64,000 bases of DNA from an uncultured Pirellulaceae bacterium (GTDB lineage Bacteria; Planctomycetota; Planctomycetia; Pirellulales; Pirellulaceae): assembly GCA_937941455.1 (NCBI GenBank), contig CALDHM010000027.1:62001-126000 (forward strand), written 5' to 3'. The translations under genes and the position numbers were made by a program. The notes beneath the pieces were generated by a model. That model did not search any database. It was given only the letters and a program-made list of their open reading frames with translations, and had not been told where the DNA came from. Below, piece by piece: positions 33,853 through 62,475 of the stretch (position 1 is the first letter of the stretch; each line of letters opens with the position of its first letter).

Positions 33853-36800
33853 TTGGCTGCCGGTGGAGAAATCACAAGCCAAGGACATGGAGGTCCTCCG
33901 ACGTTGTCGTTCGTTGCTTCGCATTTTCGAGACTCAATCCGATCGGCCTGGGCAGCCCTGTTGGTCTGCTGGTTGAGCGCGCCCCCTTTGGTCGTTGCTC
34001 AAGACCTGCCGGGTTTGGAGACAGCGGATGCTCCGTTGGCGACGCGTCATCAGGAAGCCAGACCGGCTGTCCGCGAGACAAATTTTCGTCTGCGTTTGAC
34101 GTGGGGGGGCGGTCCGCAGGAACCGTGGCATGTCAGCGTTTTTGTCGGCGAGGGACGAATCTCATCGCCGGAAATATTGGCGATGGAGAGCGATGCTTTG
34201 GGCTCCGCCAAAATCGTCGGAGATCAGCAACTTGTCGTCCGCGCTCTCAGCAAAAGCGCCTTTGGTGGCATCGACTTTACGGTCGAGGCTAAAGACGAAA
34301 CGCCGGTACTCATCGAAGTCTATTCCCAGAAGAATCCGGGGATTCGAGCCAGTAAAAAATTTCAACTCGCCGAACTTCGCGATGCCTCGGTCGGTGCGGT
34401 GATCGATCCGCAGGGCAATCGATTTGTCATCGCTCGCACTCCCGGGGACCAGTTGCGAATTGAAACGAGGAGACCGCACCTGATCTTCCAACCGGGTGAA
34501 TCCTGGCAGTTCGCGATGGTTCCCAATTTTCTCGCTGCAGCGAACAACCGGAACCTGCGGTGTGTGGCCCGTCTGCGGAATATCGCTCAACCGAAACAGG
34601 TTCTCGAAACGCTTACATGGGAGCTGCGCCCCGACGACTACGGGGGCTTTGCGGCGTTCGATGGCGAACTGAAGACGCCCGCCATTGAAGGAGTCTATGA
34701 ATTGAGCTTCACGCTGGAGCCCCGCTGGTACCAAGCTGGCTTTTCAAATCGGAATCCCGTGCTGCGAACCATTCAGTTCCTGGTGCTGGCGTCAGAGCCT
34801 CCGGAGCGAAAATCGGATACGCCCTGGTCGCTGGTTCACGATGTGCGCTGGGATGAAGCCGCGAAGGACAATTTCCCAGCCCGCGTGGCCTCGATGATCG
34901 ACCCATTCAACAAGCTCCGCAGTTCCCCGCCAGCAACCGAATCCCGGCGCGATCCGATCACTCTCCGCAGCGGAGATCAACGCATCGCGACGCTGGCCGT
35001 TCCCGATGTGAATCGCCCCTATTTGGTTCGCGTTCGCTACCAAGCGTCGGGAGCATCGAGTCTGGGTATGAGTCTGCTGGACGCAGATCGACTCGGTGGG
35101 TTTTCCAACTTCGGCTTCAATACCGGCGTTGTTCAATCAAGGGACTTCACCGCGTCCGATGACGAAGTTCCATCACGCGACTATTTAGTTGAAATGGTGA
35201 TTTGGCCAAATAACAAGAATCCGTCGTTGCTGGTAGCCAATCGCAGTCAAGGGTGCGATATTCTCGTGACGCATGTCGAGGTCTGGAGTGGGCCCGAGCG
35301 TTTAGTTGGACGGAATCATCGCGGCAACTCGCGCGGAATACTCGCCTTCGCTGAGTTGCCGCTCTTTGCTGAAAATTTCAATGGCGAGCGGGCAGTCGAT
35401 CAAGGAACCGGCGAACTGATCGACGATTGGCAAACGTTTTATTCGGCCGCCGATCGGCTGATCCAGTATCTAAAATTTTCAGGATACAGCGGCTTGATGA
35501 TTTCCATCAACGGCAACGGTGGTTGCCTCGCACCGCTGCAAAGTCTCCCCTCCAATCCGCGATATGACACCGGGAGATTCTCCTCGACGGGACAGGATCC
35601 GCAACAAAAAGACCTTCTGGAAATGCTGTTTCGCATGTTCGATCGCGAGGGCTTACGACTGATACCAGCCGTTACCTTTGCGGATCCCCTGCCGAGTTTA
35701 GAGTCGATCGCCGAGAGCGAAGGACAAAACACCGTTTGTTTGGTTGATGATCGAGGCACGGTCTGTCCGCCGAATCAAGTCCTGCCTCGCTACCATGCGT
35801 TGACTTCGTCCGTACAGGACGCGATGACCGAAGTATTGGGCGAGGTGTTGGACCGCTACGCGGCGCATCGTAACTTTGAAGGGCTTGCCGTTGTCTGCAG
35901 TGGCCATACCTACGCGATCTTGCCTGGCCGCCGGTGGGGATATGATCGAGAAACGGTGAAGACGTTCGCCGAGTCTCAGCCGGGGCTGAATTTAGAATCG
36001 AGTCCGGAATCCATCAAAGAATTCATCGATCAAGAGTTGTTAGGGCGGCGGCGGCAAGATTGGATCGCGTGGCGCTGCCAACGCTTAATGCAACTGTACC
36101 AGCGCTGGGAAACGCTGATCAGCCTGCGCAAGCCGCAAAGCAAGCTGTATCTAGCCGGAATCGAGCTCTTTCGCTCCGGCGACCTGCCCCAACAGCTGAG
36201 TCCATCGCTGCGGAAATCGGCCAGCGCAACCGAAGCCTTGCGCGACTTGGGCTGGGACGCCAAGGCTCTCGCGACACTGCGACATACGGTCGTGCTCCAG
36301 CCCACTCGCATCGCGCCTACTGAGTCGCTCATCAAGCAACGAATCGAGCTGAGCCAAAATCGCAGTCGCGGTTTGGCGGAATTCCACGGGCAGCAGCCAC
36401 ACGCTGCGACCTTGTTCATCCACCGCGACCAATGGATTCGCAGCCAAACACCTGCCGCGCAGACTGGCCAAAACCCAGGCGCATGGTATCGTCTCCAACC
36501 CATCGCTCCACCGGGACAGTCGGGTTTGAAGCGATTTGCTGAAGCGATCTTCCGCAACGATGCGGTGGAGCTGTTCGATGGCGGCTGGTTGATCGCGACC
36601 CAAAACGATCCCACTTTTCAACGATTCGCAGCCGCCCTGCATGAGTTGCCGAAGGAAAAATTCCGAGACGTCTATCCGCGCGGTTCGCAGCAATCGCGGC
36701 GACCGGTGGCCGTGCGGCAGTCGAGTTCTCGCGAGGGTTGGCTGGCTTACGCGGTCAACAGCAGTCCTTGGCAGTGTCGCGTGACCCTCAACTTCAAGGT

Positions 36801-37764
36801 GCATCCCGATCAACTGCAACTGATCCCGCCGGTAGGTGAACAGGTGAATCGCCACAATGCCTTGCAAACCAAAGTGACCTTCGAACTCGAGCCCTTCGCC
36901 TTAGTGGCTCTCCGCGCCCGGTCCGCCGACTTGATGGACTTCGAAGTGCAGATGCCCGTACAAGCCGCGACGGCTGTCCGCAGCTATCTCCATCGACTGC
37001 AATCCAGCTTGGCGTCCGCGACGGAACCGCAGCCGATCCAAAAACTTGCCAACCCGGAGTTCTTTCGCGGCCAAGGGGGCTGGCATTTCCCCAAACAGCC
37101 GGGCCAAACCGTCAACTTCATTCCGACGGCCCCCCAAAGTGTGTCCGACGCGATGCAGCTGACTTCGACAGGAACCGTGGCCTGGGTTCGCAGCGATTGG
37201 TTCGAAGCACCCGAGTCGGGACGGCTGTCGCTGGTCGTCTGGATGAGAACCCCGGATGCCGCCGCACAACCTCCCTTGCGAGTCGCCATCGAGTCCGAAG
37301 CCACGCCGCTGGAGTACTACCGCTACGCGGAGTTCGGATCTTTGTTGCCGGATCATCCCGAGCAGCAGTTGACGAGTGAATGGAAGCCCTTCGTCGTGCA
37401 TTTCGATGACCTTCCGATGCACACCGCGGCTCGCTTGCGAATCGGCTTCGACTTGATGCGAGCCGGGACCGTCGAGATCGACCGGATCGAGCTGTACGAT
37501 CGCCTGTTCGAAAAGAGCGAGTTGCAGGCTCTCACCCAATTGATTGCATCGATTCGCCCCTTGACGACGGACCCTGACTTGGTCGACGAAGCCCGCTTCT
37601 TGCTGGAGGGTTATTGGCCGCAGTTTATCGATCAGTTGTTCAATGCGACGCCTCGCGATTCCTCAACCGCGTCACCGGCGGCCACGGAAACGGCCGAAAA
37701 CCACGAATCGTCTAACGACTCGGGCCGATCAGGGTTTATCTTCCGTCGTCAGCGTCGGCGTTGA
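33853..37764 (+). CDS. giant secreted protein with glycosidase-like TIM-barrel region
   Basis: The 1303-aa product has an N-terminal signal-like helix (about 30-49, AWAALLVCWLSAPPLVVAQ). Beta-rich segments follow to about 480. The middle (about 520-800) resembles family-10-like glycoside hydrolase barrels: QYLKFSGYSGLMISINGNGG, LLEMLFRMFDREGLRLIPAVTFADPLPSL, and later FIDQELLGRRRQDWIAWRCQRLMQLYQRW. The C-terminal part (about 1080-1230) looks like a carbohydrate-binding jelly roll (GGWHFPKQPGQTVNFIP...SGRLSLVVWMRTP). The start is TTG 33853 and uncertain; no in-frame ATG precedes the signal segment. Substrate unknown; enzymatic activity is inferred only. Confidence 0.7.
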   Translation: MAAGGEITSQGHGGPPTLSFVASHFRDSIRSAWAALLVCWLSAPPLVVAQDLPGLETADAPLATRHQEARPAVRETNFRLRLTWGGGPQEPWHVSVFVGEGRISSPEILAMESDALGSAKIVGDQQLVVRALSKSAFGGIDFTVEAKDETPVLIEVYSQKNPGIRASKKFQLAELRDASVGAVIDPQGNRFVIARTPGDQLRIETRRPHLIFQPGESWQFAMVPNFLAAANNRNLRCVARLRNIAQPKQVLETLTWELRPDDYGGFAAFDGELKTPAIEGVYELSFTLEPRWYQAGFSNRNPVLRTIQFLVLASEPPERKSDTPWSLVHDVRWDEAAKDNFPARVASMIDPFNKLRSSPPATESRRDPITLRSGDQRIATLAVPDVNRPYLVRVRYQASGASSLGMSLLDADRLGGFSNFGFNTGVVQSRDFTASDDEVPSRDYLVEMVIWPNNKNPSLLVANRSQGCDILVTHVEVWSGPERLVGRNHRGNSRGILAFAELPLFAENFNGERAVDQGTGELIDDWQTFYSAADRLIQYLKFSGYSGLMISINGNGGCLAPLQSLPSNPRYDTGRFSSTGQDPQQKDLLEMLFRMFDREGLRLIPAVTFADPLPSLESIAESEGQNTVCLVDDRGTVCPPNQVLPRYHALTSSVQDAMTEVLGEVLDRYAAHRNFEGLAVVCSGHTYAILPGRRWGYDRETVKTFAESQPGLNLESSPESIKEFIDQELLGRRRQDWIAWRCQRLMQLYQRWETLISLRKPQSKLYLAGIELFRSGDLPQQLSPSLRKSASATEALRDLGWDAKALATLRHTVVLQPTRIAPTESLIKQRIELSQNRSRGLAEFHGQQPHAATLFIHRDQWIRSQTPAAQTGQNPGAWYRLQPIAPPGQSGLKRFAEAIFRNDAVELFDGGWLIATQNDPTFQRFAAALHELPKEKFRDVYPRGSQQSRRPVAVRQSSSREGWLAYAVNSSPWQCRVTLNFKVHPDQLQLIPPVGEQVNRHNALQTKVTFELEPFALVALRARSADLMDFEVQMPVQAATAVRSYLHRLQSSLASATEPQPIQKLANPEFFRGQGGWHFPKQPGQTVNFIPTAPQSVSDAMQLTSTGTVAWVRSDWFEAPESGRLSLVVWMRTPDAAAQPPLRVAIESEATPLEYYRYAEFGSLLPDHPEQQLTSEWKPFVVHFDDLPMHTAARLRIGFDLMRAGTVEIDRIELYDRLFEKSELQALTQLIASIRPLTTDPDLVDEARFLLEGYWPQFIDQLFNATPRDSSTASPAATETAENHESSNDSGRSGFIFRRQRRR

Positions 37765-37796: not shown

Positions 37797-39791
37797 TTAG
37801 CTGTGGGAATCGTCGCGCTTGTTAGCCAGCAACGGAATGTAGACCGTTTCGAGATAGGCTCGAAGTTGGTGTCCTCGACTAGCTGCCGCGTTGATTCGTT
37901 GCAAAATTTGCCTCATGGCCTCGTGCGATGCCACCGCTTCGATCCGCAGGAGTTCGCGCCCCTCGGCATTGGCTTTCGGACCGATGTGTCTATCCCAGCA
38001 ACGGCTGGCGGTAAAAGCACTGACGCCCCCGTCTTCCAGGATGTCGGCGATTTCGTCCTCCAGGCTCAGGTCACCGATCACGGTCAGGCGTTGTGCCGTG
38101 GCGGGTCGGCGGTTACGGCTGGCGAGGTGATGCGAGGTCATGGGCTCGAGTTGGTCCAAGCCAAGCAACTCCAATTGCAGGCCTTGCAGGCGGAAATCAT
38201 CTTCCAGGTGATGCAATTTCTCCATCACACTATGATCGACCATCTTCGTTTTAGTCAGGTCGAGCAGGACGCTTTTTCCTTGATTCAGACCTGCTATTTC
38301 GATAGTTCGGCGGACGGCGATCCAGTTGCTGAAGACCAGGGATTCCCCTGCGGCGATTCGCACCGAATGGCCGTCGATCGGCTCCACGTTGAGGGCCGGA
38401 AAAAATAAGGTCCGCAAGGGAACACCTTGCGCAAGATGCATCAGGAATTTTAAGCCGATCCCAATCGCGATGCCGATCAATAAATCCGTTGCGAGTACGG
38501 CAACTAACGTCACAACGAAGATCGCCAGTTGATCGAGGCCGATCTTAAAGACATTGATGAATTCTTGGGGATGCGCTAGGCGAAAGCCCGTGTACACCAA
38601 CATACCCGCCAGTGCTGCTAAGGGAATCTGATGCAACAGCATCGGCAGCAGTGACACGCAAGCCAGCAAGAAAATTCCATGCCAGAAATTAGCGAAGCGA
38701 GTTTTTCCCCCGTTATCGATGTTGGCCTTGCTGCGGACGATTTCGGAGATCATGGGCAGGCCGCCCACCAAGCTGCTCAAGACATTTCCGGCGCCCACCG
38801 CGATGATGTCGCGGTCCATATCGCTGCGCCGCTTCCAGGGATCGAGCAAGTCCACAGCCTTGGCACTCAGAATCGACTCCAAGCTGCCAATGATGAAAAA
38901 CAAGGCCACCCATTTCCAGGCGATCGGCTGCTGCAGAACGGTGAAGTCGGGGGTTTGAATATTCGAAAAAACTCCGAAGATTTTTTCGGGTACCGCCACA
39001 AGATACTTTTCGCTCAACTGGTATTCGTGATTGTGCAAGAAGTACGAATGCTGATGGAGCAAATCGAAGAACCACCCCAGAGGAACAGTCAACGCGAGCA
39101 CGACCATCGGTGAAGGAATTCGGCGCAATGCCGGAAATTTTTTTCCAACCAATGGCCATAAAAACATCACCAGAATACTGAGCATCCCGATCAAAGCGAT
39201 CACGGGATTGGCCTCGACGATGAATTCGGGAATCCTGCGGATCAAGTCGAGGGGTTCGCCGTTGACACTCAACCCCAAGGCGACGGGGATTTGCTTCGAA
39301 ATGATGATGAGACCGATCGCCGCTAACATCCCATGAATCGCCGCGACTGGGAAAAACTCCCCTACAATCCCGGCGCGGACCAGCCCAAACCCGATTTGGA
39401 TAATAGCCGCCGCGAATCCGACCGCCAGCGCCGCTCGGTAGGCGTTGGTGTCGATCTCGGTCCAGCCCCCCGTCATGCCATCGCCACCGAACGCCTCGAT
39501 GCAGCCCAGTACGATCACAATCAGGCCTGCAGCGGGGCCCTTGATCGTCAGCTCCGAATTGCTGAACAGCGTCCCGATGCCCCCGCCGATGATTGCCGTG
39601 AATACGCCAGCAACAGGCGGAACCCCCGAGGCAACCGATATGCCCAAACAGAGCGGCAGAGCCAGTAGAAAAACCATCAAGCCCGACATCAAGTCGGATT
39701 GCCAATAGGCTTTAAACCCCTGCCAATTACCGACAGGTTTGTCGCCGAGCCACGCGGTCGATTCGGCATTCGTTTTCGAGAGGTCAGTCAT
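37797..39791 (-). CDS. SulP-family anion (bicarbonate/sulfate) transporter
   Basis: The 664-aa product is a SulP permease with about 10-12 membrane helices: SGLMVFLLALPLCLGISVASG, GIGTLFSNSELTIKGPAAGLIVI, FIIGSLESILSAKAVDLLDPWKRRSDMDRDIIAVGAGN and LPMISEIVRSKANIDNGGKTRFANFWHG. A C-terminal STAS-like domain has SVLLDLTKTKMVDHSVMEKLHHLED. Such proteins import sulfate or, as BicA, sodium-dependent bicarbonate. Here it is the last gene of the DabA operon; its ATG overlaps the previous stop by 8 bp (ATGACTGA). Bicarbonate import is therefore the favoured guess. Confidence 0.9.
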   Translation of the reverse strand: MTDLSKTNAESTAWLGDKPVGNWQGFKAYWQSDLMSGLMVFLLALPLCLGISVASGVPPVAGVFTAIIGGGIGTLFSNSELTIKGPAAGLIVIVLGCIEAFGGDGMTGGWTEIDTNAYRAALAVGFAAAIIQIGFGLVRAGIVGEFFPVAAIHGMLAAIGLIIISKQIPVALGLSVNGEPLDLIRRIPEFIVEANPVIALIGMLSILVMFLWPLVGKKFPALRRIPSPMVVLALTVPLGWFFDLLHQHSYFLHNHEYQLSEKYLVAVPEKIFGVFSNIQTPDFTVLQQPIAWKWVALFFIIGSLESILSAKAVDLLDPWKRRSDMDRDIIAVGAGNVLSSLVGGLPMISEIVRSKANIDNGGKTRFANFWHGIFLLACVSLLPMLLHQIPLAALAGMLVYTGFRLAHPQEFINVFKIGLDQLAIFVVTLVAVLATDLLIGIAIGIGLKFLMHLAQGVPLRTLFFPALNVEPIDGHSVRIAAGESLVFSNWIAVRRTIEIAGLNQGKSVLLDLTKTKMVDHSVMEKLHHLEDDFRLQGLQLELLGLDQLEPMTSHHLASRNRRPATAQRLTVIGDLSLEDEIADILEDGGVSAFTASRCWDRHIGPKANAEGRELLRIEAVASHEAMRQILQRINAAASRGHQLRAYLETVYIPLLANKRDDSHS

Positions 39792-41241
39792 GAGTTGAAT
39801 TCCTTATCGCACCAGAAATGTTTTCGTTGATTGATTCTCGCACGTCTCGCGGCGCAGTAGCCGCACGGCGTCGCAGTAGTTCTTGGGCGGCATGGTAACG
39901 CGAGTTGGCCTGCCATTGCGGGAACAAACCGCCGAGGACCATGAGTAATGCCAAGACCACGATCGTTAGCCGCTCCGGTAGACTCGCTTGCATCGATATG
40001 GTCGCCGGGGCGATCGACCCAGTAAAAATTCGGAAATAGGCCCGCAGAGCACCGATTCCATTGAAGGCCATCACCACCACGACCAGCGCTCCGACAATGG
40101 AGTAGACGTGAATCGCTCCTTCCACAAACAATTCTCCGCCGATGAAACCAATCGTGCCGGGAAAGCCGATGCCGGACAAAACTGCCAGCAAGAAAAAGCC
40201 GGCGAGCGCTGGCATCTGCCCGTACAGACCATGGAAGTCATTCAGGCCCACTCGCCCCACACGCCCTTCCACCGCGCGAATGACGATGCCGAGCGCCGTC
40301 AACGATATCCCCGATGAAAACCATAAGATCAAGCCGCCCGTCAATCCGATCGTGGTCACTGATTCGAGACCGATCAGCACCAGCGATACGTTACCCAACA
40401 CCAGATAGGCGAAAAATTTACGCGTATTCGTTTGCACGACCGCCATTCCACTGGCATAAACCGCGCTCAACAGCGAGACGAGGGCGATGGCCCGCAGGAT
40501 CTCTGCGGACGTAAAGGGAAACACCAGGCGAACGACACCGAGCGCCCCGATCATCGGCACCACGAACAAAATCGCGGTTCCCAGAGTCGCCCGCTCGAAC
40601 AAATCGATCATCCAGGTGTGAAACGGTACGCAGCCACAGCGGATGACCAAGCCCAACGCCAGCAACAAATCCCCCACGAATGGCCGCGCATCGATTTCTA
40701 CCGCTGACCATGCCATCCAACTTCCCACGGCAATCAGCGCCATCGACAATGCTTGGTGCAAAGCGAACAGTTGCCAAACCTGACCGCGGGCGCGCAACTC
40801 GAAGATCGGCAAAAGGTTTTGCAGCAACAGCAAACCGACAAACCACCGCGGCTCGCGGCAACTCAACAAGGCCAGCAACAAGCTCAGCGAAACAAGGGTT
40901 AGCGCGAAGGGAAATCGGGATTGCTTCGAGCGAGGAGTCACGAATGTGATAGCGAAATATAGTAGTGCGCCGAACGCAAATAACGGGGCGCTCAATTCAT
41001 CGATCACCAAGAATTCGCTGCCAAGCCAGCGTTCCCAGAAATTCAAGCGGTCGTGCGCCTCGAAGCTTTTCAAGCTCTCGAAGTCCAGCCAGGCAACCAC
41101 GGCACACAACAACGTGATCCCCAGCGCCAGAACGGTGAGGCCCCAGCGCCGCCGATCATTGCGGAGACTGCTTACGATGATCGAGGCGAGTAGAGGAATC
41201 GCCAACGCGGCTTCGATCCAATATCCGTGTAACTCAAGCAT
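39784..41241 (-). CDS. second antiporter-like (NuoM/N-like) membrane subunit of the DAB operon
   Basis: The 485-aa product is a polytopic membrane protein of the proton-conducting NADH-dehydrogenase/MrpA family. It has about 14 helices, including LALGLVIRCGCVPFHTWMIDLFERATLGTAILF, which aligns with the PFHxWLPDAxxxAPT region. The lysine usual in the preceding helix is replaced by Arg or shifted (VIRCGCVPF), and the WE-L-G glutamate helix reads LLLLQNLLPIFEL. It is therefore a diverged paralogue of the preceding DabB-like subunit. ATG 41241 is used: it overlaps the previous stop by 8 bp (ATGCTTGA). A longer frame upstream is a shadow. Confidence 0.82.
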   Translation of the reverse strand: MLELHGYWIEAALAIPLLASIIVSSLRNDRRRWGLTVLALGITLLCAVVAWLDFESLKSFEAHDRLNFWERWLGSEFLVIDELSAPLFAFGALLYFAITFVTPRSKQSRFPFALTLVSLSLLLALLSCREPRWFVGLLLLQNLLPIFELRARGQVWQLFALHQALSMALIAVGSWMAWSAVEIDARPFVGDLLLALGLVIRCGCVPFHTWMIDLFERATLGTAILFVVPMIGALGVVRLVFPFTSAEILRAIALVSLLSAVYASGMAVVQTNTRKFFAYLVLGNVSLVLIGLESVTTIGLTGGLILWFSSGISLTALGIVIRAVEGRVGRVGLNDFHGLYGQMPALAGFFLLAVLSGIGFPGTIGFIGGELFVEGAIHVYSIVGALVVVVMAFNGIGALRAYFRIFTGSIAPATISMQASLPERLTIVVLALLMVLGGLFPQWQANSRYHAAQELLRRRAATAPRDVRESINENISGAIRNSTHD

Positions 41242-42613
41242 CCGCTTCCTCACCAGGTTGATGGAATTTCGCCGTGACCTGATTGCCAAACCAAGCGATC
41301 CCATTCGACTCGAGACGACTGCACCAACGGAAAAATTCCAACCAAGGTGCAACCAGGCCGCGATCGAGCAGTAAATCCAGGTAGCCTCGCTCTAGCCCGA
41401 AGCGGTAGAGCCAGGGTTGCATTTCCGCCGGTTTTGAGTCCTCGAGCTGCGAGAGCCGACTCATCGCGATTTTCCGACCGACCGCGGTTTCAATGTTGAA
41501 ATAGTCCTGAAGCAGGTTCGAGGCACGCAGCAGTTGCAGCGTCCGCAAGAAGGCATGCCCGATAATGTGTGTCAGGGCCAGGTAGTACCAACCCATGCCG
41601 ATTTCGACGACGATCAAACCGACTTGTGTCAATGCCGAGAAGGCCAGCACGCCCTTGATATCCGCCTGAACTCTGCCGATCAGGTTCGCCACGATGGCCG
41701 TCGCCAGACCGATTGCAATAACCAGCGCGGTAAGACCTGCAGAGTTGGCGATCAGGGGGCTGACCCGCAGCAGCAAAAAGGCCCCTAAGTGAATCGACAG
41801 AGCACCGTAAAAAATGGCGCTCGATGGCGTTGGCCCCTCCATGGCCCGCGGCAGCCAACCTGAGAACGGAATCAATGCCGATTTCGCCGCAGCCGCCAAT
41901 AACAGCAATCCTCCTACGCTGAAGGCCTCCCGGCCGCTGAGCAGGGATACCGCGTTGGGCCAAGCCCCCTGACCGGTCAAATGATCGAAATCCCCCTCGC
42001 CGGTCAGATGGTGCATCATCACCACAGCCACCAGAAACAGAGCGTCAGATATTCGGTACACGGCCCAAACCCGCAAACCGTTGTTCACCGGTCCGCGGCG
42101 CTCGTGGAAAAAACCGACCAACAAGGCCGATGCCAACCCCACCAGTTCCCAACCAAAAAAAAGTACCTCGATCGTGCTGGCCAGAAAACTCAGACTCAAC
42201 CCGAAGGAAAACAACGCATAGAACAAAAAGAAGCGTTGGTATCCCGCCTCGCGATGCAAATAGTTCGATGCGAAAGCCGCTACAGTTCCGCAGAGTAAAT
42301 AACTTAGAGTCGCCAGCGGCACTGACAGGCGATCGAAGACAAATTTCAGATGAAAATGGAAATGCTCTTCGGGCAAGATCACCCAATGACCAAATTCCAG
42401 GATCGTTTCCGTGCGGCCAGCGGCGATCATCATGCCAGCCACTCCGAAAATTCCCACGAGCCCAAGCAAGTTCGTCAACAAACTCAGTCGACCGATCACT
42501 TGCTCCCGCAGAGACACATTCAGTAGGCTGCAAAGTCCAATCGTACCGGCCAGCAAGCTCGGAGCGAACACGGCCAAAAATGCACTCGCCGCAAAAAAAG
42601 TCGAATCAAGCAT
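41234..42613 (-). CDS. dabB: DabB-like proton-conducting membrane subunit (NuoL family)
   Basis: The 459-aa product has the NuoL/MrpA core: VLFFGWELVGLASALLVGFFHERRGPVNNGL with the functional Glu, then AVYRISDALFLVAVVMMHHLTG, LLLAAAAKSALIPFSGWLPRAMEGPTPSSAIFYGALSIHLGAFLLLR with the Lys, and a later IKGVLAFSALTQVGLI helix. In dissolved-inorganic-carbon (DAB) systems, DabB couples a cation gradient to the DabA enzyme. It directly follows dabA with an 8-bp overlap (ATGCTTGA). The ATG at 42613 gives MLDSTFFAASAFLAVFAPSLL; frames upstream lie inside dabA. Membrane location is clear; the coupled ion is not. Confidence 0.88.
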   Translation of the reverse strand: MLDSTFFAASAFLAVFAPSLLAGTIGLCSLLNVSLREQVIGRLSLLTNLLGLVGIFGVAGMMIAAGRTETILEFGHWVILPEEHFHFHLKFVFDRLSVPLATLSYLLCGTVAAFASNYLHREAGYQRFFLFYALFSFGLSLSFLASTIEVLFFGWELVGLASALLVGFFHERRGPVNNGLRVWAVYRISDALFLVAVVMMHHLTGEGDFDHLTGQGAWPNAVSLLSGREAFSVGGLLLLAAAAKSALIPFSGWLPRAMEGPTPSSAIFYGALSIHLGAFLLLRVSPLIANSAGLTALVIAIGLATAIVANLIGRVQADIKGVLAFSALTQVGLIVVEIGMGWYYLALTHIIGHAFLRTLQLLRASNLLQDYFNIETAVGRKIAMSRLSQLEDSKPAEMQPWLYRFGLERGYLDLLLDRGLVAPWLEFFRWCSRLESNGIAWFGNQVTAKFHQPGEEADA

Positions 42614-45600
42614 GAACCACTCCTGATCGGTGCCGTTCGTAGATCGTATTCCCCACCGGCCCAATTCCCGCAAAACGTAGATCCTCGCGCTTGCCGGAAT
42701 ACCAATCGCTCGATGTTTCCGCTCGCGGCCGAGTTGTTTTGCTGCCTTGGTAGAGTACGAAATCGCCCCGCACATACCGTCGAATTTCTGGACGCTGCGG
42801 ATCCAACAAAGCAAGCTGCAACCACGAATTTCTCACGATTTGCTCAAAGTAGGGATTGGCTGCGAAGACCTGATGAATTCCTTCTTCGGTGGCCTCGACG
42901 ATCAGCAGCAAACGCAAGGGTTGATGGATCTCGACCATTTGCCAGGGCAGACCGGTTCGCAAATCGCTTTGCGCTCCATCCATCACACCCAACAGTGACG
43001 TGATATTGTGGGGCAGCTTCGTGCCGCAGCCGAGTCGAACAGGGTCGGCGTACGAGAAGAAATACTCCAGGTTGATGCCACCGCACACAGGGACGACCGC
43101 GCCGAGAATTCGTGACAGAATCGTCAAATTCGCATCGTCCACTCGCGTGTCGTAACTGTGCAAGAAAGCCCGCCGATCAAAAAAGATTCCGCGCGTCCGC
43201 TCGCGTCGGCCCACGATGCAAATCGCATTGGTGGCGTGGCCGCACTCAGGGCGAGCTTGAGACAAATCTTCGACCCGCCCCTGAACGTGTTTGACGGCAT
43301 CTCGAACGGATAGTTGCAAGGGCGCCGACATGAAGCGGCGACAACGCTCATGTGCATTGCGACGAGCCGCCTCGACCAGGGCGGCACGGGCTGCGACCAA
43401 ACGGGGCTGCACCCAGCCGGGGATCGCTTCGACATCGAAAAAGGTCAATTGGTCATTCGCCGTATTATGGAAGGCACCCACGAACCAAGTATCGACGGGA
43501 ATCACCAGATTTCGTTCGGCCAGGCGACTGCGGACGCGGGGATCATTAGCCATTTGCGCGAAGGCTCGGGCATTCGGACCGCCATGACCTCCACCGCACG
43601 CGCCGCAATTGTAAGCCGAGCCGTGGGGGTTGTTCAGGCTGGTCGATCCATGACCGACGATGATGACCAGCGGCGACCAGTCCCCGATCAAACCAAGATC
43701 GTGCAGGACACGGTGAATAATCTCAGCCATTTCATCGACCGAAAAGCCCGGAAGTCGATGAATCGCTGCCTCGGGTTGTTGCTGGAGATTGAGTCGAGTT
43801 TTCGCGGTGGTCTCGAACCACCCTGCAAACTGGCGACTAATCAAACCGGTGACCCGTGGAAAAAGAACTCGCATGACCAACGGGATAACGGCGAGCAAGC
43901 CCACGAGCGACGTGATGATTCCTGACAAAAACGAACGACTGTGCAGGTGCAATCGCTGTTGCCATTCACCGAGATTGCGGCGTCGACTCGCTCGCTCCTG
44001 AGCTTGGGCCAATTCTTCTCCTTGAAATTCCTCGGTGACGCCATGTTTGGGTTCGATGACGATGGGACAAAGCGGAATCGCTTGAAATGATTCAGCAGCT
44101 TGATAGAACATGGCCACACCGAAAAATCCAGCGGCACCCCAGGTCCGCGCCCGCGGTTCGACTTCCTCCAAATGCCGCCGAAAAGATTCCTCGCGCTCAT
44201 CGATGCAGGCGATCATGTCAAACAGGTAGCCGGAACCCTGGGGTATTGCAGGTTCCGCCCCGCGGTTTGCACCCGTTGTCGATATGCCAGAGATATCGGA
44301 AACAGGCTGTTCGGCTAGATTTAGAATCGCGTCGAAACATTCGTGTCGCCAATTTCTCTCGAAGGCTGCCTGAAAAACCAAACAGCGCTGATACTCGTCG
44401 AAGGCGCGAATTTCATCCAAGACCTTATGCCAATTGGCAGCAGACATCGAAAACAGTGTCTTCGGATACCATCCCAAGCCACGGGCAAGTTGAAAAATCG
44501 CGTAGGCTTCGCTGCGAATTTGGCCCAGCGATTTTTTCTGCAACGACTCCGCAGCGACCGTTCGCAATTGTGACAACGGGAGATCGTCGCAGTCCGATTG
44601 ATTTGCGAGCCATCGCAAGGCCAGTCGATCCAGAATCAAGCGAACCGCTAAGAATTCAACCAGCGTTCCCGCTGGAACCGGCTGAGAAACTCGGTCCGGC
44701 CGTTTTTCGATCTGCCAGATCATCCCGGCAAAACCGCGCAACGCCAAGAGGGTTTGCGCTAGGTAATCAGGCACCTCCGCGGAGGTCACCCCCAAGGCCG
44801 ACAGACTTTCGGCGATGCTGTGCAGGGGAGACAGACCCCGCTGTTCGACTTGGTGCAATTCGGCTTGCAGCGGCCGCAGCCAGGGAGCGAGCAACTCGGT
44901 GCGGCTGTCGAAAATATCCGAAAAGGCTTGCCAAAATCCAGCCTCCCTGCGAGGCATCATCGTTTGGCTGAGGCCTTGATCCAAAAAGGCGCTGCAAAAT
45001 GGGATCAGACGTTCATGGACCAGCCCATCGGCATCGACCCCTTTCCATTGCAAAAGAGCATCCCGATGACGAATGAAATGGACATTCTCCGACCATCGCG
45101 GAAAACGCGAGACCGCGCGAAAACAAATCTGCCACAACATCTGCAACGTCAGCGATTCCCAGGTCTTGTCAGACCAGGATGACGCCCGGTCGAAGCGAAA
45201 CTGGGATCGCAACGCGTCGCACTTTTTGACGAAACGTTTTAGCTCCGTTCGCTCAGATTCCGTCTCGTTGCTGGGATCGGCACTACCATTGACATGATCG
45301 AGGCAACGGAGTACCCAACGCCGGGTATTCTCGACCAGCGCTCGTTTGAGATCGCCCGATGTAGTGCTGGGAAATCGTTCAAAAGCTGCGGTCTCGGCGA
45401 TGACCCAGTCGAGTTCCTCCGGGAGGACCGCTTGGACCGGTTGATGCAGTAACTCGCGTCGGAGGTGAAACCGCGTACCCAGCAAACCGACGAACAAGTC
45501 CGCCTCGTGTCCTAACGATTCCTCCAAAGCGGCCTCCACATCTTCGGTGGAAAACGCCCCTTGCTTCCATGCCTGACGATACCACGATTCCGGCAGCATC

Positions 45601-45773
45601 GTTCGGCAGTTCAACGTCTTCGCGCCTGCCCGGACGCCTTCGTCAAATGGCATGCCCTCGAAAGCATGCAGTGTGTTGTGATGAATAAACACGGTCAGCG
45701 GACCTTGCGACGGGAGCAAATGAGCCGCATGGTCGATCGCGTGTTGAATTTCCTCGATCGTTAATGTTGACAT
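42606..45773 (-). CDS. dabA: DabA-like DUF2309 protein (inorganic carbon accumulation)
   Basis: DabA is the soluble, beta-carbonic-anhydrase-like subunit that hydrates CO2 vectorially. The 1055-aa product (start ATG giving MSTLTIEEIQHAIDHAAH) keeps the predicted zinc-site residues of the family. These are C523 and D525 in ACIDEREE, H708 in VGHGS and C723 in YNCGACGGGHGG. The H708-to-C723 spacing of 15 equals that of H524-C539 in the characterised Halothiobacillus DabA. The early FIHHNTLHAFEGMPFDEGV segment is also typical. It leads a four-gene operon. The longer frame to 45947 adds 58 residues with no homology. Confidence 0.92.
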   Translation of the reverse strand: MSTLTIEEIQHAIDHAAHLLPSQGPLTVFIHHNTLHAFEGMPFDEGVRAGAKTLNCRTMLPESWYRQAWKQGAFSTEDVEAALEESLGHEADLFVGLLGTRFHLRRELLHQPVQAVLPEELDWVIAETAAFERFPSTTSGDLKRALVENTRRWVLRCLDHVNGSADPSNETESERTELKRFVKKCDALRSQFRFDRASSWSDKTWESLTLQMLWQICFRAVSRFPRWSENVHFIRHRDALLQWKGVDADGLVHERLIPFCSAFLDQGLSQTMMPRREAGFWQAFSDIFDSRTELLAPWLRPLQAELHQVEQRGLSPLHSIAESLSALGVTSAEVPDYLAQTLLALRGFAGMIWQIEKRPDRVSQPVPAGTLVEFLAVRLILDRLALRWLANQSDCDDLPLSQLRTVAAESLQKKSLGQIRSEAYAIFQLARGLGWYPKTLFSMSAANWHKVLDEIRAFDEYQRCLVFQAAFERNWRHECFDAILNLAEQPVSDISGISTTGANRGAEPAIPQGSGYLFDMIACIDEREESFRRHLEEVEPRARTWGAAGFFGVAMFYQAAESFQAIPLCPIVIEPKHGVTEEFQGEELAQAQERASRRRNLGEWQQRLHLHSRSFLSGIITSLVGLLAVIPLVMRVLFPRVTGLISRQFAGWFETTAKTRLNLQQQPEAAIHRLPGFSVDEMAEIIHRVLHDLGLIGDWSPLVIIVGHGSTSLNNPHGSAYNCGACGGGHGGPNARAFAQMANDPRVRSRLAERNLVIPVDTWFVGAFHNTANDQLTFFDVEAIPGWVQPRLVAARAALVEAARRNAHERCRRFMSAPLQLSVRDAVKHVQGRVEDLSQARPECGHATNAICIVGRRERTRGIFFDRRAFLHSYDTRVDDANLTILSRILGAVVPVCGGINLEYFFSYADPVRLGCGTKLPHNITSLLGVMDGAQSDLRTGLPWQMVEIHQPLRLLLIVEATEEGIHQVFAANPYFEQIVRNSWLQLALLDPQRPEIRRYVRGDFVLYQGSKTTRPRAETSSDWYSGKREDLRFAGIGPVGNTIYERHRSGVVHA

Positions 45774-46622: not shown

Positions 46623-47648
46623 ATGGCATCCAACAAACTGAACATTTCGACGAACAAACGATGGCAGCCGGGACTTTTGAGCTTCCTACTGCACGCAGGC
46701 TTGTTGATCCTGGCGAGTTTGTGGGTGTTCCAGCAACCTGCCTCGGTCGGGGGGGGCTTGCCTGATCGAGTTGGCGAGATCGTCCTCGCCACCGCGACTT
46801 CCGACCGACAGACGGTCGAGTACCACGCGGAAAACGAAGCCCCCGCGGATTCCGCCAATTCTGCTGCAGACATTCCCCAATTGCCCGATGCACTCACGCA
46901 ACCGGAAATTCCGCCGATTGAGAGGACTCATGTTGAGGGAGCCGGACCCCCGCTCGAGATGTCCGAGTCCGCAAACCAGATGCAGCAGTCGTTGTCGGCG
47001 AGTCGGATTGAACATACCTTGAGCGATCACGATCTCGAGGCGATCGCCCGCGAACAGCGCGCCTTGGGCAATCGGCAACCGCAGGGACCCCTAGTCGCTG
47101 CATCACTGTTCGGCAGCGGTAAAATCGAGGGTCGCCGATTTGTATTCGTGATCGATCGATCGGCCAGTATGGGGGATTCCGGATTAGGCGTCTTATTTCT
47201 GGCCCGCAAAGAATTGGCCAATGCGGTCGCCGCGTTGACGCCGGAGAATCATTTTCAAGTGTTGGTCTACAATGATAAAGTCACGATGATTGGCGAGCGG
47301 AACATGCTGGCCGCGAACGAAGAGAATCGCCGCCGCTTGACGCAATTTATGGGCAGCATCGCAGCTTTTGGTGCGACGAATCACGAAGCCGGCATGTATT
47401 CGGCCCTGGCCCTGCGGCCCGACGTCATCATCTGGTTAGCCGATGGCGGTTACCCCGAAATGAATGCCAACCAGATTCGTTCGTTTTTGTCGACTGCAGG
47501 CCAGCGAGTTGCGGTACATTCGTTTGAGTTCGGCACCAAACCGGACCCGCCTGCAGGATCGTTCATGCGCAAAATGGCGGAGGATGCTGGCGGGACATAC
47601 CGCTACGTGAACGTGGATGAGTGGAAGCGACAAAATCAGGAACGTTAG
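46623..47648 (+). CDS. membrane-anchored von Willebrand factor A domain protein
   Basis: The 341-aa product has one N-terminal transmembrane helix (about 17-36, GLLSFLLHAGLLILASLWVF). A variable linker (about 40-155) precedes a VWA domain (about 165-335). The metal-binding DxSxS site is intact (FVFVIDRSASMG), followed by the conserved ATNHEAGMYSALALRPDVIIWLADGG stretch holding the MIDAS Thr and Asp. VWA proteins bind protein partners via a metal ion. The next ATG follows its stop with no gap (TAGATG), so it is coupled to the 680-aa gene. Partner unknown. Confidence 0.86.
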   Translation: MASNKLNISTNKRWQPGLLSFLLHAGLLILASLWVFQQPASVGGGLPDRVGEIVLATATSDRQTVEYHAENEAPADSANSAADIPQLPDALTQPEIPPIERTHVEGAGPPLEMSESANQMQQSLSASRIEHTLSDHDLEAIAREQRALGNRQPQGPLVAASLFGSGKIEGRRFVFVIDRSASMGDSGLGVLFLARKELANAVAALTPENHFQVLVYNDKVTMIGERNMLAANEENRRRLTQFMGSIAAFGATNHEAGMYSALALRPDVIIWLADGGYPEMNANQIRSFLSTAGQRVAVHSFEFGTKPDPPAGSFMRKMAEDAGGTYRYVNVDEWKRQNQER

Positions 47649-49691
47649 ATGAGAGCCTGTCCCCTAGTCGGCTTGGCGAAACGCCAACGCTTGGGCAATG
47701 TGCGTTGGGTAGTTTGGTTGCTGCACGTCCCGTTACTGGCAGCGTTGTTTCATCCAGCGGCGAGTCTCGGACAAATCCCGGTGACTCTGGTCTACCAAAA
47801 CGGCACGACCGTATTCGTCGAACTCGTTGATGAGGCCTTCCCTGGAATTGATGAGGCCACCGGGGAACCACGGCCGATACCCTGGTCGGAAATTCGTTGT
47901 GTCATCTTTCGCAAAGCGGCGGGGTCGTCGGAACGAGAGATAGTTGCTACGGCGATTGCCAAGCTCGACGCTGCCGACTATCAAGAGCGAGAAGAAGCCG
48001 AAACCAAACTTTTGCAACTGCCAACGCTGCAAAATTATCGCGGCTTGCTACAGGCCGAACTGGACCATCCCAGCCTCGAGAAGCGTTACCGCGTGGCCCG
48101 CATCCTCAAACAAATCGACCGGTCGCGGTCAACCACGGCGCGGACGCGTTCCCCGCGGCCTGCGCTGGCAACCGAACAAGATTTCGTGCGTTTGAAAACC
48201 GGCCAAACGCGCATCCTGAAATTGGCGCAACAGCGAATCGCCTGTCGCTGGCGTGGCCAGGTCATCCAACTGGCAACCGATCAACTTGAACGCATCGTGT
48301 CAGGCTGGCCAAAACTCGCCGCCGATGTCGACGCGACTCCGCGGATGAATCGAGTTCAAGTGGTTCAGGCCAGCGAGCAAGCGAATGACTGGCGCGACGC
48401 GCCGGAATGGAATTTCGCAGTCGATCGAGGAGGATTTTCGCTCGAACCGTTCCACCTGGTCCAAGACGAATTCGTTGATCGCGGCGTGCGTTTGTTTTCG
48501 GAGCGGAATTTTCAAGTCATCGTGGCCGACATCAGCAACGTCACCAACGACGGGCCGGTGCTGAAGTCCTTGTGCGTCTATGATGGCGAGAAGTCGCGGC
48601 GGATTTTCAGCGGAAGAATCCGGGTCAGCTTTTGTCTGCCGGATTTGCCCGAAATCCCAGCCACGGTTGATGCTGTCGGATTTCAGCTGGCCATCATCGA
48701 TAATCCCAAAGATGTCGTGATGGATGCCTACGATGCCGAGGGCCGCATCATCACCCGCATCGAAGCGGGGGGGGAACGCAACCAATTCTTCGGCTTGCGT
48801 TCCGAAATTCCAATTGCTTTCGTCGAGATGAAATTGAATGAGCATTTACAGACGCTCGACCGCGACATCGACAAATCGTACTCCCTGCAAACCTTTCGTC
48901 ACTCGTCGCCGCGACCAGCGACGACTTACGTCAATCGCCGGCCTGACTATGCGGTGCGGCTTCGCTCCGGTGAAGTTTGGTTCGTTCCGGAATTGGCCTG
49001 GGACGATGGAGCGCTGCGAATCGATGATGCTGTCTGGGGACCGGTGGAAATTCCCCTGGCCGAAATCGCGGCGATCCAGGGACCGGAATCGCCGTGGCGT
49101 GAGCCATCGTCCCGAGCCTCGGGTTGCTTCGTCAAACTTGCTGACGGTTCGATCTTCAAGTGCGATCCCCAGGATGGCTTGTTCGTCTCGACGCGGCAGC
49201 CATTGTGGCGCGTTCGGGCCGATAATGTGGAGGCGATCTGGTTTCCCAAAGATGAGTTGCGTTACCCCCGGGAGGACGATTTCAGTGAGACTTGGCAAGT
49301 CGTCCTCGTTTTCCCAACGTGCCGCTGGCTGCTGCCCGAGCTCAAGGTTACTCCCCGAGATATTGCCTGGGATACACGGCGGGGAGAACTCAAGCTCCCC
49401 GAATTATTGCCCACAATCAAGGAGGCCTACACCCGCGAAAACGACCTGGTGACGCCTCGCTTCGACAGTTTTGCTCTGGTCGGGTCGCGAGAGACGCAAA
49501 GTCCATCGGTATGGTTTGCCCCGGTGCGATCGGCGTCCCAACCGATGGTGCTGCTACGAAACGGCGAAAGATTCGATCTGGCCGCCCACTTCAAATTGGC
49601 GGCGGTCGACGGCGACGCCCTGGTACTGACCGATGCCGATGGGTTAACTTGGAAGATCAAGTGGAGCGAAGTCGCTCTCGTGAAATTCTAG
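47649..49691 (+). CDS. large exported protein of unknown function coupled to the VWA gene
   Basis: The 680-aa product has an N-terminal hydrophobic segment (about 18-42, VRWVVWLLHVPLLAALFHPAASLG) suggesting export. A helical segment with KLDAADYQEREEAETKLLQLPTLQNYRGLLQAEL lies near 95-130. Repeated beta modules look alike: IPVTLVYQNGTTVFVELV, DYAVRLRSGEVWFVPELAWDDGALRIDD and MVLLRNGERFDLAAHFKLAAVDGDALVLTDADG. A region near 270-400 (FQVIVADISNVTNDGPVL, VGFQLAIIDNPKDVVMDAYDAEGR) has jelly-roll-like spacing. I do not recognise a family. It starts immediately after the VWA stop and the two may form a surface complex. Confidence 0.75.
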   Translation: MRACPLVGLAKRQRLGNVRWVVWLLHVPLLAALFHPAASLGQIPVTLVYQNGTTVFVELVDEAFPGIDEATGEPRPIPWSEIRCVIFRKAAGSSEREIVATAIAKLDAADYQEREEAETKLLQLPTLQNYRGLLQAELDHPSLEKRYRVARILKQIDRSRSTTARTRSPRPALATEQDFVRLKTGQTRILKLAQQRIACRWRGQVIQLATDQLERIVSGWPKLAADVDATPRMNRVQVVQASEQANDWRDAPEWNFAVDRGGFSLEPFHLVQDEFVDRGVRLFSERNFQVIVADISNVTNDGPVLKSLCVYDGEKSRRIFSGRIRVSFCLPDLPEIPATVDAVGFQLAIIDNPKDVVMDAYDAEGRIITRIEAGGERNQFFGLRSEIPIAFVEMKLNEHLQTLDRDIDKSYSLQTFRHSSPRPATTYVNRRPDYAVRLRSGEVWFVPELAWDDGALRIDDAVWGPVEIPLAEIAAIQGPESPWREPSSRASGCFVKLADGSIFKCDPQDGLFVSTRQPLWRVRADNVEAIWFPKDELRYPREDDFSETWQVVLVFPTCRWLLPELKVTPRDIAWDTRRGELKLPELLPTIKEAYTRENDLVTPRFDSFALVGSRETQSPSVWFAPVRSASQPMVLLRNGERFDLAAHFKLAAVDGDALVLTDADGLTWKIKWSEVALVKF

Positions 49692-60183: not shown

Positions 60184-62475
60184 ATGTCGTACGACAAGAC
60201 CGAACTACAGACCCCAAAGCAATTGGAGGAGGCCCAAGCGATCAGTCGCACCGGAGCCGGTCCGCCGCGCGAGATTCCGGGTTACACGATCCTCCGGCCG
60301 CTCGGCTCCGGCGCGTTCGGGGAGGTTTGGCTGGCGATGCACGAGATCACGCGCCGCCGTGTCGCCATCAAATTTTACAATCAACGGAGTCTTGCCGATG
60401 TCCGCGGCCTCGCCAAAGAAGTTGAAAAACTGGTGGTACTTTCGGCCGATCGTTACGTGGTCCAATTGCTTGATGTCGGCTGGGAATCCGATCCGCCGTA
60501 TTACGTGATGGACTTCATTGAGCACGGATCGCTTGAGGATTTGCTGCGGTCCCGCGGAAAACTCCCCGTTAACGAAGCCCTCGAGATTTTCCAGGAGACG
60601 GCTCGCGGGTTGATGCATTTGCACGGTAAGGGGATTTTGCATTGCGACCTGAAGCCCGGCAATATTTTGCTCGACCAAGACCGGCATCCTCGACTCGCAG
60701 ACTTCGGGCAATCGCGGCTTTCGCATGAGGCAGTACCATCGCTCGGCACCTTGTTCTACATGGCCCCCGAGCAAGCGGACCTGTCGGCGCTTCCCGACGC
60801 GCGGTGGGATGTCTATGCGCTCGGGGCGGTCTTTTATGCCATGTTGACCGGAAGACCGCCACATTATGACGAAACGGCCACCAATCAGATCGAGTCGAGC
60901 GGCGATATCCACCAGCGACTCGAGGCCTACCGTCGCCGTATTCTCAAGTCTCCCCCACCCAGCGGTCATCGGGCGATTCCTGGCCTCGATCGCCATTTGG
61001 CAGAGATCATCGATCGCTCGATCGCCAGCAATCCCCATCGACGTTTTGACAGCGTGCAGTCGGTGATGCTCGCCTTGCAGCAGCGACAAGACATGATTCA
61101 GCGGAGACCGCTGTTGATCCTGGGTTTGCTTGGACCGTTGCTGTTGATCTTGATCATGTCGTTGTTCGGTTGGCAAGCCTATCGCCGCGCGGTACTCGAT
61201 TCGGATCGCGCGATCACGCAGAAGGCGGTCGAGGCCAATCGATTTGCAGCCAGGTTAGCGGCTCGTACCGCTTCGGAACAATTGGATGCCTATTTCCGGG
61301 AATTGACGGATTTGAGCCGCGATCGGGACTTCAAGGCCGCCGCTACCGCGCTGCTGCGGGACGAAAGCTTTCGGGAGTTAGGCCGAAAAATCTCGGATCC
61401 CAGCCGGAACAACGATCCCAGCATCAAGTATCTTCGCGATGAGTTTCTGGCTCACCACCAGCGACAGGCCTTGCAAGAATGGCTGGTCAATCATCACCTC
61501 GAGCGGCGGCCGCCGCACGTCGCCAGTTGGCTCGTGTACGATCGCATGGGAAATCAGGTCATCGGTGTGTTCGTCGATCCGGAAACCGGCAAGGTCGACA
61601 GCAAACCCAGTCACACACTCGGCAAGAACTACAGTTTCCGTTCTTACTTTACGGGACTCTTGGAGGATCTGATCGACGAATCTCCAGACGCGCCGTCGCG
61701 CTTTTTGGTCGATGCCGATCCGCTGCAGCGGAAAATCGTCAGCGGGAAATCGCTTAGCTCCGTATTTTTGAGTGAGCAGAGCGCGACGTGGAAGATCGCA
61801 TTTTCCGAACCACTGTACGAAGGCTCGGAAGTGATCGGCGTCGTCGCCTTGACCGTGCAAATGGGAGAGTTTGTCCACTTCGATGCGGGCCGTAATCAAT
61901 ACGCGATGATGTTCGACGGTCGGCCGGGACCGAAGCAAGGGGTGATTTTGGAACATCCGCTATTTGGCCAGTTGCAAAATAAAAACGCTGCCCCGGTGAA
62001 AGACGCGGTCAATTTGCGCGTGAACCTGGACGAGATCGCGGTGCCGATTTTACGCGACCCGCTGGGACAATTGCCGATCGGCGAGGAATATCAGGCCGAT
62101 CGCTTGGTGGCGACCGCATCGATCCCTTTCACTGGCGAGGGCCAACAGGAAATCGATTCGGGATTGATCGTTGCGGTCCTCGAAGATTACGCCGGCGTGA
62201 TCCGCCCGTCTCACGATCTGGGCAATCGACTGATGCGGATGGCAGCGACCGCCGCGGCGATCCTCCTGCTGGTCGCCTTGGCAATGTGGGGCCTCGTGGC
62301 CAGAATGTTCAACGTTTCGCGGCGACGTCTGGCGCGGGCCGTCACCGGGTTGCCCGGAACCGAATCCCTATCGTCACCGCGTTACAGCGATCGCACCACG
62401 TTGCCGCGATCGGGAACTCCCGTCACGAACGCCACGACGGACACCGATAAACAACCAGGAGAACCATTACGGTGA
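60184..62475 (+). CDS. transmembrane serine/threonine kinase with external sensor domain
   Basis: The 763-aa product has an N-terminal eukaryotic-like kinase domain (about 34-300). The glycine loop is LGSGAFGEVWLA, the ATP Lys is K63 (VAIKFY), the catalytic loop HCDLKPGN, the metal motif ADFGQ and the substrate loop MAPEQA, so it looks active. TM1 (about 309-332), a periplasmic region of about 350 residues resembling a double Cache sensor (YDRMGNQVIGVFVDPETG, GKNYSFRSYFTGL, ATWKIAFSEPLYEGSEVIGVVALTVQ) and TM2 (about 682-708) follow. A short cytosolic tail ends the protein. The GTG of deoC overlaps its stop by 4 bp. Confidence 0.92.
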   Translation: MSYDKTELQTPKQLEEAQAISRTGAGPPREIPGYTILRPLGSGAFGEVWLAMHEITRRRVAIKFYNQRSLADVRGLAKEVEKLVVLSADRYVVQLLDVGWESDPPYYVMDFIEHGSLEDLLRSRGKLPVNEALEIFQETARGLMHLHGKGILHCDLKPGNILLDQDRHPRLADFGQSRLSHEAVPSLGTLFYMAPEQADLSALPDARWDVYALGAVFYAMLTGRPPHYDETATNQIESSGDIHQRLEAYRRRILKSPPPSGHRAIPGLDRHLAEIIDRSIASNPHRRFDSVQSVMLALQQRQDMIQRRPLLILGLLGPLLLILIMSLFGWQAYRRAVLDSDRAITQKAVEANRFAARLAARTASEQLDAYFRELTDLSRDRDFKAAATALLRDESFRELGRKISDPSRNNDPSIKYLRDEFLAHHQRQALQEWLVNHHLERRPPHVASWLVYDRMGNQVIGVFVDPETGKVDSKPSHTLGKNYSFRSYFTGLLEDLIDESPDAPSRFLVDADPLQRKIVSGKSLSSVFLSEQSATWKIAFSEPLYEGSEVIGVVALTVQMGEFVHFDAGRNQYAMMFDGRPGPKQGVILEHPLFGQLQNKNAAPVKDAVNLRVNLDEIAVPILRDPLGQLPIGEEYQADRLVATASIPFTGEGQQEIDSGLIVAVLEDYAGVIRPSHDLGNRLMRMAATAAAILLLVALAMWGLVARMFNVSRRRLARAVTGLPGTESLSSPRYSDRTTLPRSGTPVTNATTDTDKQPGEPLR

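Follow-up and report, generated by a model that had tools for sequence, protein, structure and literature searches.

Gene organization of the locus

The stretch analysed here (the window: 64,000 nucleotides of an uncultured Pirellulaceae bacterium, assembly GCA_937941455.1, contig CALDHM010000027.1, forward-strand positions 62,001 to 126,000) carries four consecutive genes encoding a DabA protein, a DabB-like protein, a second antiporter-like protein resembling NuoM and a SulP-family permease (Table 1). An earlier sequence-only reading had described them as a DAB-family operon, and their positions and families are confirmed by profile matches (PF10070; PF00361 with PF00662; PF00361, scanned on frame 39784-41250; PF00916). 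The genes overlap by 8 nt at each of the three junctions (ATGCTTGA at dabA/dabB, ATGCTTGA again at dabB/nuoM-like and ATGACTGA at nuoM-like/sulP, from the starts used), which fits a single, putative, translationally coupled operon. DabA, DabB and the NuoM-like protein form a conserved module with a DabA that appears to belong to a second, sequence-defined class, and we tentatively propose that the two membrane proteins together provide one split proton path to a single CO2-hydrating enzyme.

Table 1. Genes, junctions and key codons of the operon (window coordinates; class II as named in the text; TM, transmembrane helix; beta-CA, beta-carbonic anhydrase).
Feature	Position	Strand	Description
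dabA (class II)	42606..45773	-	1055 aa, beta-CA-like zinc subunit; PF10070, 736 bits
dabB-like	41234..42613	-	459 aa; PF00361 + PF00662; NuoL-type core about TM1-11, 102-aa tail
nuoM-like (second antiporter-like)	39784..41241	-	485 aa; PF00361; NuoM/NdhD matches
sulP, SulP-family permease	37797..39791	-	664 aa; PF00916, 192 bits
dabA/dabB overlap, 8 nt	42606..42613	-	
dabB/nuoM-like overlap, 8 nt	41234..41241	-	
nuoM-like/sulP overlap, 8 nt	39784..39791	-	
C523 codon	44205..44207	-	zinc ligand (D525, R527 follow); aligned to C351 of DabA2
H708 codon	43650..43652	-	zinc ligand; aligned to H524
C723 codon	43605..43607	-	zinc ligand; aligned to C539
H846 codon	43236..43238	-	at DabA2 Leu658 position; RPECGH vs RPEWGL
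Finger-like helices, DabA residues 588-653	43815..44012	-	S622 at Glu444 position, no acid there
Glu370 codon	40132..40134	-	TM12 acid of nuoM-like

The match of DabA to PF10070 covers the entire model (positions 1-747 of 747; 736.3 bits, E 6e-221), and a phmmer search of PDB sequences (E up to 1) returned a sole DabA relative, DabA2 of the DAB2 complex of Halothiobacillus neapolitanus (9rd0_A, E 2.8e-67). On alignment, C523, D525, R527, H708 and C723 pair with C351, D353, R355, H524 and C539 of DabA2, and the His-to-Cys spacing is 15 in both proteins; the sequence-only reading, which had singled out C523, D525, H708, C723 and this spacing and had staked itself on the residues being present once correctly aligned, stands on this point. 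The three zinc ligands (Cys, His, Cys) and the Asp-Arg dyad are all invariant in the 70 of 70 aligned DabA rows (open reading frames of at least 780 aa, plus the window protein and DabA2). In the structural model of DabA, helices resembling the DAB2 finger span residues 588-611, 615-637 and 639-653, partly with pLDDT below 50. A second structural look matched the model to the carboxysomal beta-CA CsoSCA (Z 9.4, root-mean-square deviation (rmsd) 4.9, 324 residues), and the DAB2 entry is absent from the listed fold-search matches of the DabA and DabB models.

With DAB2 (DabA2-DabB2, PDB 9rd0; PMC13144422) the window system shares the PF10070 and NuoL-like subunits, the zinc ligands, the Asp-Arg dyad and several DabB proton-channel residues. 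It differs in having dabA first, a longer DabA with Glu for Ser356, His846 for Leu658 and Ser622 in place of the finger Glu444, a shorter DabB in which Glu, Tyr and Arg occupy the positions of I151, H260 and K347, and the additional NuoM-like and SulP proteins. A NuoL-like PF00361 partner directly adjoins DabA, as in complexes that accumulate dissolved inorganic carbon (DIC). Judged from its sequence, the system is a member of these PF10070/DIC-accumulating complexes and is not of the DAB2 type, lacking both Glu444 and Leu658. The missing finger acid, the His at position 658 and a DabB that ends at about TM11 are the most informative departures from DAB2, and all three had escaped the sequence-only reading.

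The gene set itself is not new, since its layout has been in print since 2017. A neighbourhood survey (PMC5700660) places ybcC (DabA, COG3002) upstream of NuoL, frequently together with COG1008 (NuoM) and COG0659 (SulP), in a 'clade C' whose gene order matches that of the window. There, DabA is left without a function and outward ion translocation is proposed, and the clade C section is silent on residue changes, on the short DabB and on carbonic anhydrase neighbours. DAB1, moreover, has a third small membrane protein (PMC13144422), so confining known DAB systems to DabA and DabB, as the earlier reading did, was too narrow.

A conserved three-gene module

PF10070 is present in 61 of the 392 genomes of a phylum set, at 78 places (the window being one). 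Neighbourhoods were fetched at these places except at four partial ones (G199:C682, G328:C438, G065:C993, G191:C228), and neighbour genes were sorted by similarity to the window proteins. Three layouts were found: (i) DabB-DabA, in 16 loci, with a NuoM-like or SulP gene in the fetched stretch of none; (ii) DabA-DabB-NuoM-like (hereafter three-gene), in 31 loci plus the window; and (iii) DabA followed by a longer DabB, without a NuoM-like gene. L072, cut by a contig end, was sorted as DabA-DabB. A contig-database scan that used 13 three-gene DabA rows as queries found 570 relatives, the best 80 of which are mostly planctomycete, with some Verrucomicrobia or Akkermansia labels, one Acidobacteria, one Gammaproteobacteria and some labelled just 'bacterium'. 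A few records apparently stand in both sets: L157 and L074, with identical DabA, and likely L120 and L061, and L158 and L060.

DabA-DabB-NuoM is a conserved module: where at least 3.1 kb lay downstream, DabB was found in 57 of 60 loci and the NuoM-like gene likewise in 57 of 60. Co-occurrence, which the sequence-only reading had proposed as a check on all four genes, held for three of them; sulP is optional, lying downstream in 19 of the 42 loci with at least 5.5 kb. In L108 and L110 (Schlesneria bins) and in L133, dabA is long and of class II.

Two classes of DabA

In a maximum-likelihood tree of 92 rows (a quick method, unrooted for want of an outgroup, with several long branches, that of the window DabA among them), DabB-DabA sequences split from DabA-first sequences with an SH-aLRT of 100. 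We call the two groups class I and class II, names coined in this analysis. The class I side includes Halothiobacillus, Staphylococcus, Haloarcula, Nocardia, Methylocystis, Rhizobium and a Bacteroidota plasmid; within its own clade the window DabA has an unusually long branch (1.07). MpsAB of Staphylococcus consists of the same two protein families and gives bicarbonate to a heterotroph (PMC8567241); its staphylococcal plasmid relative has the DabB-DabA order and class I residues.

Three positions, in DabA2 numbering, separate the classes. Class I (17 rows, DabA2 included) has Ser356 and Leu658 in 17/17 and Glu444 in 15/17, and the plasmid outgroups carry all three residues in 6/6. Among the 50 class II rows, Glu occupies position 356 in 48 and His or Asn position 658 in all (His 47, Asn 3), and an acid is found at position 444 in none of the 48 rows with a letter there. 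A larger class II set, which partly overlaps the first, gave 78/79, 80/80 (His 76, Asn 4) and 0/80, respectively; since its rows had to score above 300 bits against the window DabA, which drops class I, it speaks to the uniformity of class II and not to differences between the classes. So far as the literature searched goes, this second DabA class, as defined by sequence, appears to be new, an earlier description in Desmarais 2019 being possible.

The residue at position 658 deserves attention. Leu658 was found to be strictly conserved among 150 homologues, and ordinary beta-CAs have at this position a Gln or His that is thought to stabilise the transition state (PMC13144422). Leu658 of DAB2 can, however, be replaced without loss in vivo (PMC13144422), so the class II His is suggestive of a different catalysis and no proof of it.

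Seven genomes of the phylum set (G381, G333, G137, G350, G389, G181 and G238) contain both a class I and a three-gene class II system, and an eighth, G268, combines class I with class II of the longer-DabB type; the classes are therefore not simple replacements of each other. L154, from a bin labelled Akkermansia muciniphila, has class I and class II dabA on a single contig. In L077, L078 and L079 (family f46), a pair of DabA-DabB operons belonging to different class II subtypes lies back to back, reading divergently. In L061 (G130) and L120 an in-frame TGA breaks dabA, and L061 is also without the TM12 acid of the NuoM-like protein.

The membrane partners

The three-gene DabB proteins keep the ion-pair residues of NuoL, among them a Glu at the I151 position (29/29, vs 0/16 in class I), and have Tyr for H260 (29/29) and Arg for K347 (28/28 rows with a letter), counts that reach 67/67, 67/67 and 65/65 in the larger class II set. 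After the K347 equivalent their tails run for about 90-120 aa, and 28 of the 29 (one of these 28 a fragment) are free of hydrophobic segments. Class I tails measure 184-193 aa with 3-4 hydrophobic segments in 14 of 16; the two others, L034 and L036, measure 500-536 aa. These 16 were left after setting aside four of the 20 that the tail-length sort had placed in the class I list, namely L061, L097 and L099 (three-gene, with broken or partial DabA) and L098 (partial DabA). With the threshold used, no hydrophobic segment was detected past residue 340 of the window DabB. Its AlphaFold model (12 sequences, mean pLDDT 74.2) places a last membrane helix at 343-378, followed by low-confidence amphipathic helices, and superposes on E. 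coli NuoL (7p7e_L) with Z 38.0 and rmsd 3.5 over 405 residues. By sequence, DabB ends after about TM11, a NuoL TM1-11 core with a predicted non-membrane tail; DabB2 and NuoL part ways from TM12 on (PMC13144422).

In proton-pumping NuoM, a Glu in TM5 and a Lys in each of TM7 and TM8 are key residues. The window NuoM-like protein has L139, R201 and M230 at these positions, and the TM5 Glu and TM8 Lys are each absent from all rows (0/32 for both; 0/63 and 0/62 with a letter in the larger set). With all three of these residues lost, a full pump is not favoured, and the pump-like role that the sequence-only reading gave to the extra subunit is unlikely. The TM12 motif has an acid (Glu370 in the window) in 30 of the 31 rows that show a letter there, and in 60 of 61 in the larger set. 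The top PDB match, 6tjv_D (a subunit 4 entry), scores barely above ordinary NuoM.

Of the longer class II DabBs, which have no NuoM partner, six have tails that match the C-terminal part of the NuoM-like profile well (E <1e-13, best 2.8e-30), the match of the remaining ones being weak or not significant, and the TM12 acid of the NuoM-like protein recurs in 19/19 tails with a letter, of 20 rows. The DabB frames of L034 and L036, both class I, are exceptionally long at 851-887 aa and contain a NuoM-like motif; the DabA next to them measures about 1100 aa.

Carbon context

As the sequence-only reading had noted for the stretch it saw, RuBisCO was not found: the large subunit (PF00016) has no match in the window's assembly (96% complete), and 2 of the 61 DabA genomes have one. 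A CO2-concentrating role for the Calvin cycle, which calls for RuBisCO in the genome, is thus not indicated, and we infer that the system supplies inorganic carbon outside that cycle, most simply bicarbonate for biosynthetic carboxylases.

Carbonic anhydrase is frequent in these genomes. In the phylum set, the fetched stretches of 13/31 three-gene loci contain a beta-CA gene, vs 0/16 for class I loci, which links the three-gene system to inorganic carbon. In 11 of those 13 loci (L049, L050, L051, L052, L053, L056, L058, L067, L070, L071 and L074) the gene is divergent from dabA and upstream of it, no more than about 2.1 kb away. Such a gene was near dabA in 6 of 36 contig-database loci with both flanks. 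None was found around the window dabA (30001-52000), and in the window's assembly PF00484 matches once, partially, on a different contig. Across the 392 genomes, PF00484 occurs in 54 of 61 with DabA vs 179 of 331 without (crossed by eye; raw counts, uncorrected for phylogeny and completeness). The idea that DAB replaces carbonic anhydrase in planctomycetes is rejected by the 54 of 61. In PMC8567241, MpsAB is said to coexist only rarely with carbonic anhydrase in a species, bacteria with both also being named; the joint presence of DAB and beta-CA in planctomycetes, nearly all without a RuBisCO match, bears on that view. A diverged beta-CA (PF00484, 61-80 bits) follows the SulP or NuoM-like gene in three loci (L056:14853-15461, L070:1365-2015 and L062:12926-13567), and in it the Arg of the Asp-Arg dyad is, by eye, gone from the first motif.

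A split proton path?

In DAB2, E444A and E444Q abolish activity, and the finger together with DabB TM12-13 is the probable periplasmic half-channel (PMC13144422). In most rows analysed here one acid stands at this place: class I has it in the finger of DabA, class II in a membrane protein, at TM12. Because of this complementarity, a correlation on related sequences, we favour, at slightly short of an even chance, a second class of DIC-accumulating complex in which DabB and the NuoM-like protein jointly form one split proton path serving one CO2-hydrating enzyme; no earlier proposal of this mechanism was found in the literature searched. A zinc-containing, beta-CA-like CO2 hydratase, DabA, would sit on a two-protein membrane module, DabB giving the cytoplasmic half-channel and Glu370 of the NuoM-like protein the periplasmic one, the role that DabA Glu444 and DabB TM12-13 have in DAB2. 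Inward proton flow would then drive the conversion of CO2 to bicarbonate, which might feed biosynthetic carboxylations in a RuBisCO-less cell, with SulP possibly acting as an accessory carrier of an anion, perhaps bicarbonate. That the membrane machine turns CO2 into bicarbonate at the expense of the proton gradient is probable. A true second architecture, with the relay acid in TM12 of the NuoM-like protein (or of the longer DabB tail) and not in the DabA finger, a beta-CA-type His at the active site, and coupling and catalysis partitioned unlike in DAB2, is conceivable, though we lean somewhat against it. The apparent swap of an acid between finger and membrane partner yields a short list of single-residue tests.

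A comparable arrangement exists elsewhere: in the cyanobacterial CO2-uptake complex NDH-1MS, a CO2-hydrating protein is carried by NuoL-like and NuoM-like subunits. CupA of NDH-1MS is not known to be related to DabA. NDH-1MS is powered by electron transfer (PMC13144422).

Several observations weigh against the split path. The rows behind all the residue counts are related and not independent, and the complementarity is imperfect: two class I rows, L032 and L033, carry Gly at 444 and show no TM12-type motif in the DabB tail, hence neither acid, and class I L034 and L036 have both, Glu444 and an acid-bearing motif in the long DabB tail. The finger alignment is loose, and the fingers of longer-DabB class II proteins carry an acid about 10-15 residues further on. 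TM12 acids are ancestral in complex I subunits, which makes their retention alone weak evidence, and Glu370 is offset by one residue from E407 of E. coli NuoM. An Arg is fixed at the TM7 Lys position of the NuoM-like protein (32/32; 62/64 in the larger set) and might still move ions. In the DabA model, pLDDT falls below 50 for C723, H846 and some of the finger, and no Foldseek match was obtained with it at E <0.001. L108, L110 and L133 have DabA with no DabB or NuoM-like protein recognised nearby. The coexisting beta-CA would short-circuit a bicarbonate pump, barring a difference in expression or location. Finally, the literature searched yielded no report that a class II member is active.

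Among the alternatives, sodium-coupled bicarbonate uptake, with SulP as a second bicarbonate route, draws on the proposal that the homologue MpsAB is a Na+/HCO3- symporter (PMC13144422), on the SulP neighbour and on the NuoL-like ion pair retained in DabB. We consider it unlikely, as DAB2 needs no sodium (PMC13144422) and the CO2-hydrating zinc site is intact in all rows. Class II DabA might instead be an ordinary, freely reversible, membrane-anchored carbonic anhydrase whose antiporter-like partners serve pH homeostasis. While the His or Asn where ordinary beta-CAs have Gln or His and the neighbouring beta-CA genes speak for this, L658Q in DAB2 gave no in vitro CO2 hydration (PMC13144422), the gene set stays together in 57/60 loci and most of these genomes already have a beta-CA, so that this possibility also seems improbable. 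A machine with two pumps, DabB and the NuoM-like protein each translocating ions, has been put forward for operons with multiple membrane subunits (PMC5700660) and again by the sequence-only reading. It would account for the retention of the extra subunit in 57/60 loci and for the fixed Arg in TM7; given the loss of the TM5 Glu and TM8 Lys from every NuoM-like row, we give it only a small chance. Least probable of all is a NuoM-like protein that merely scaffolds the missing DabB helices while protons leave by another route, a notion in keeping with the lost TM5 Glu and TM7/TM8 Lys and with L032 and L033, which have neither acid, and at odds with a TM12 acid in nearly every row.

SulP permease and flanking genes

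Structure matches of the permease include SLC26/SulP entries such as 6ki1 and identify it at the family level only. Besides the downstream counts given above, sulP is near in 21 of 36 loci; in the phylum set, it is found in the fetched stretch of 14 of the 32 three-gene loci (window included; some contigs are cut), in 11 of them downstream and on the same strand. A structural subunit is not favoured for such an optional neighbour, and SulP, which the sequence-only reading had made part of a larger machine, is probably an accessory anion carrier, the anion perhaps being bicarbonate.

Upstream of dabA, the next open frame of the window, at 46623, is divergent; past sulP, the frame 33853-37764 is convergent. 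At E 0.001, no Pfam match was obtained for the window proteins 33853-37764 (1303 aa) and 47649-49691 (680 aa). SulP lies upstream of class II dabA in L131, L139, L154 and L170, whose dabA genes are close relatives of one another; their bins bear the label Akkermansia muciniphila or Verrucomicrobia, and the species name seems surprising.

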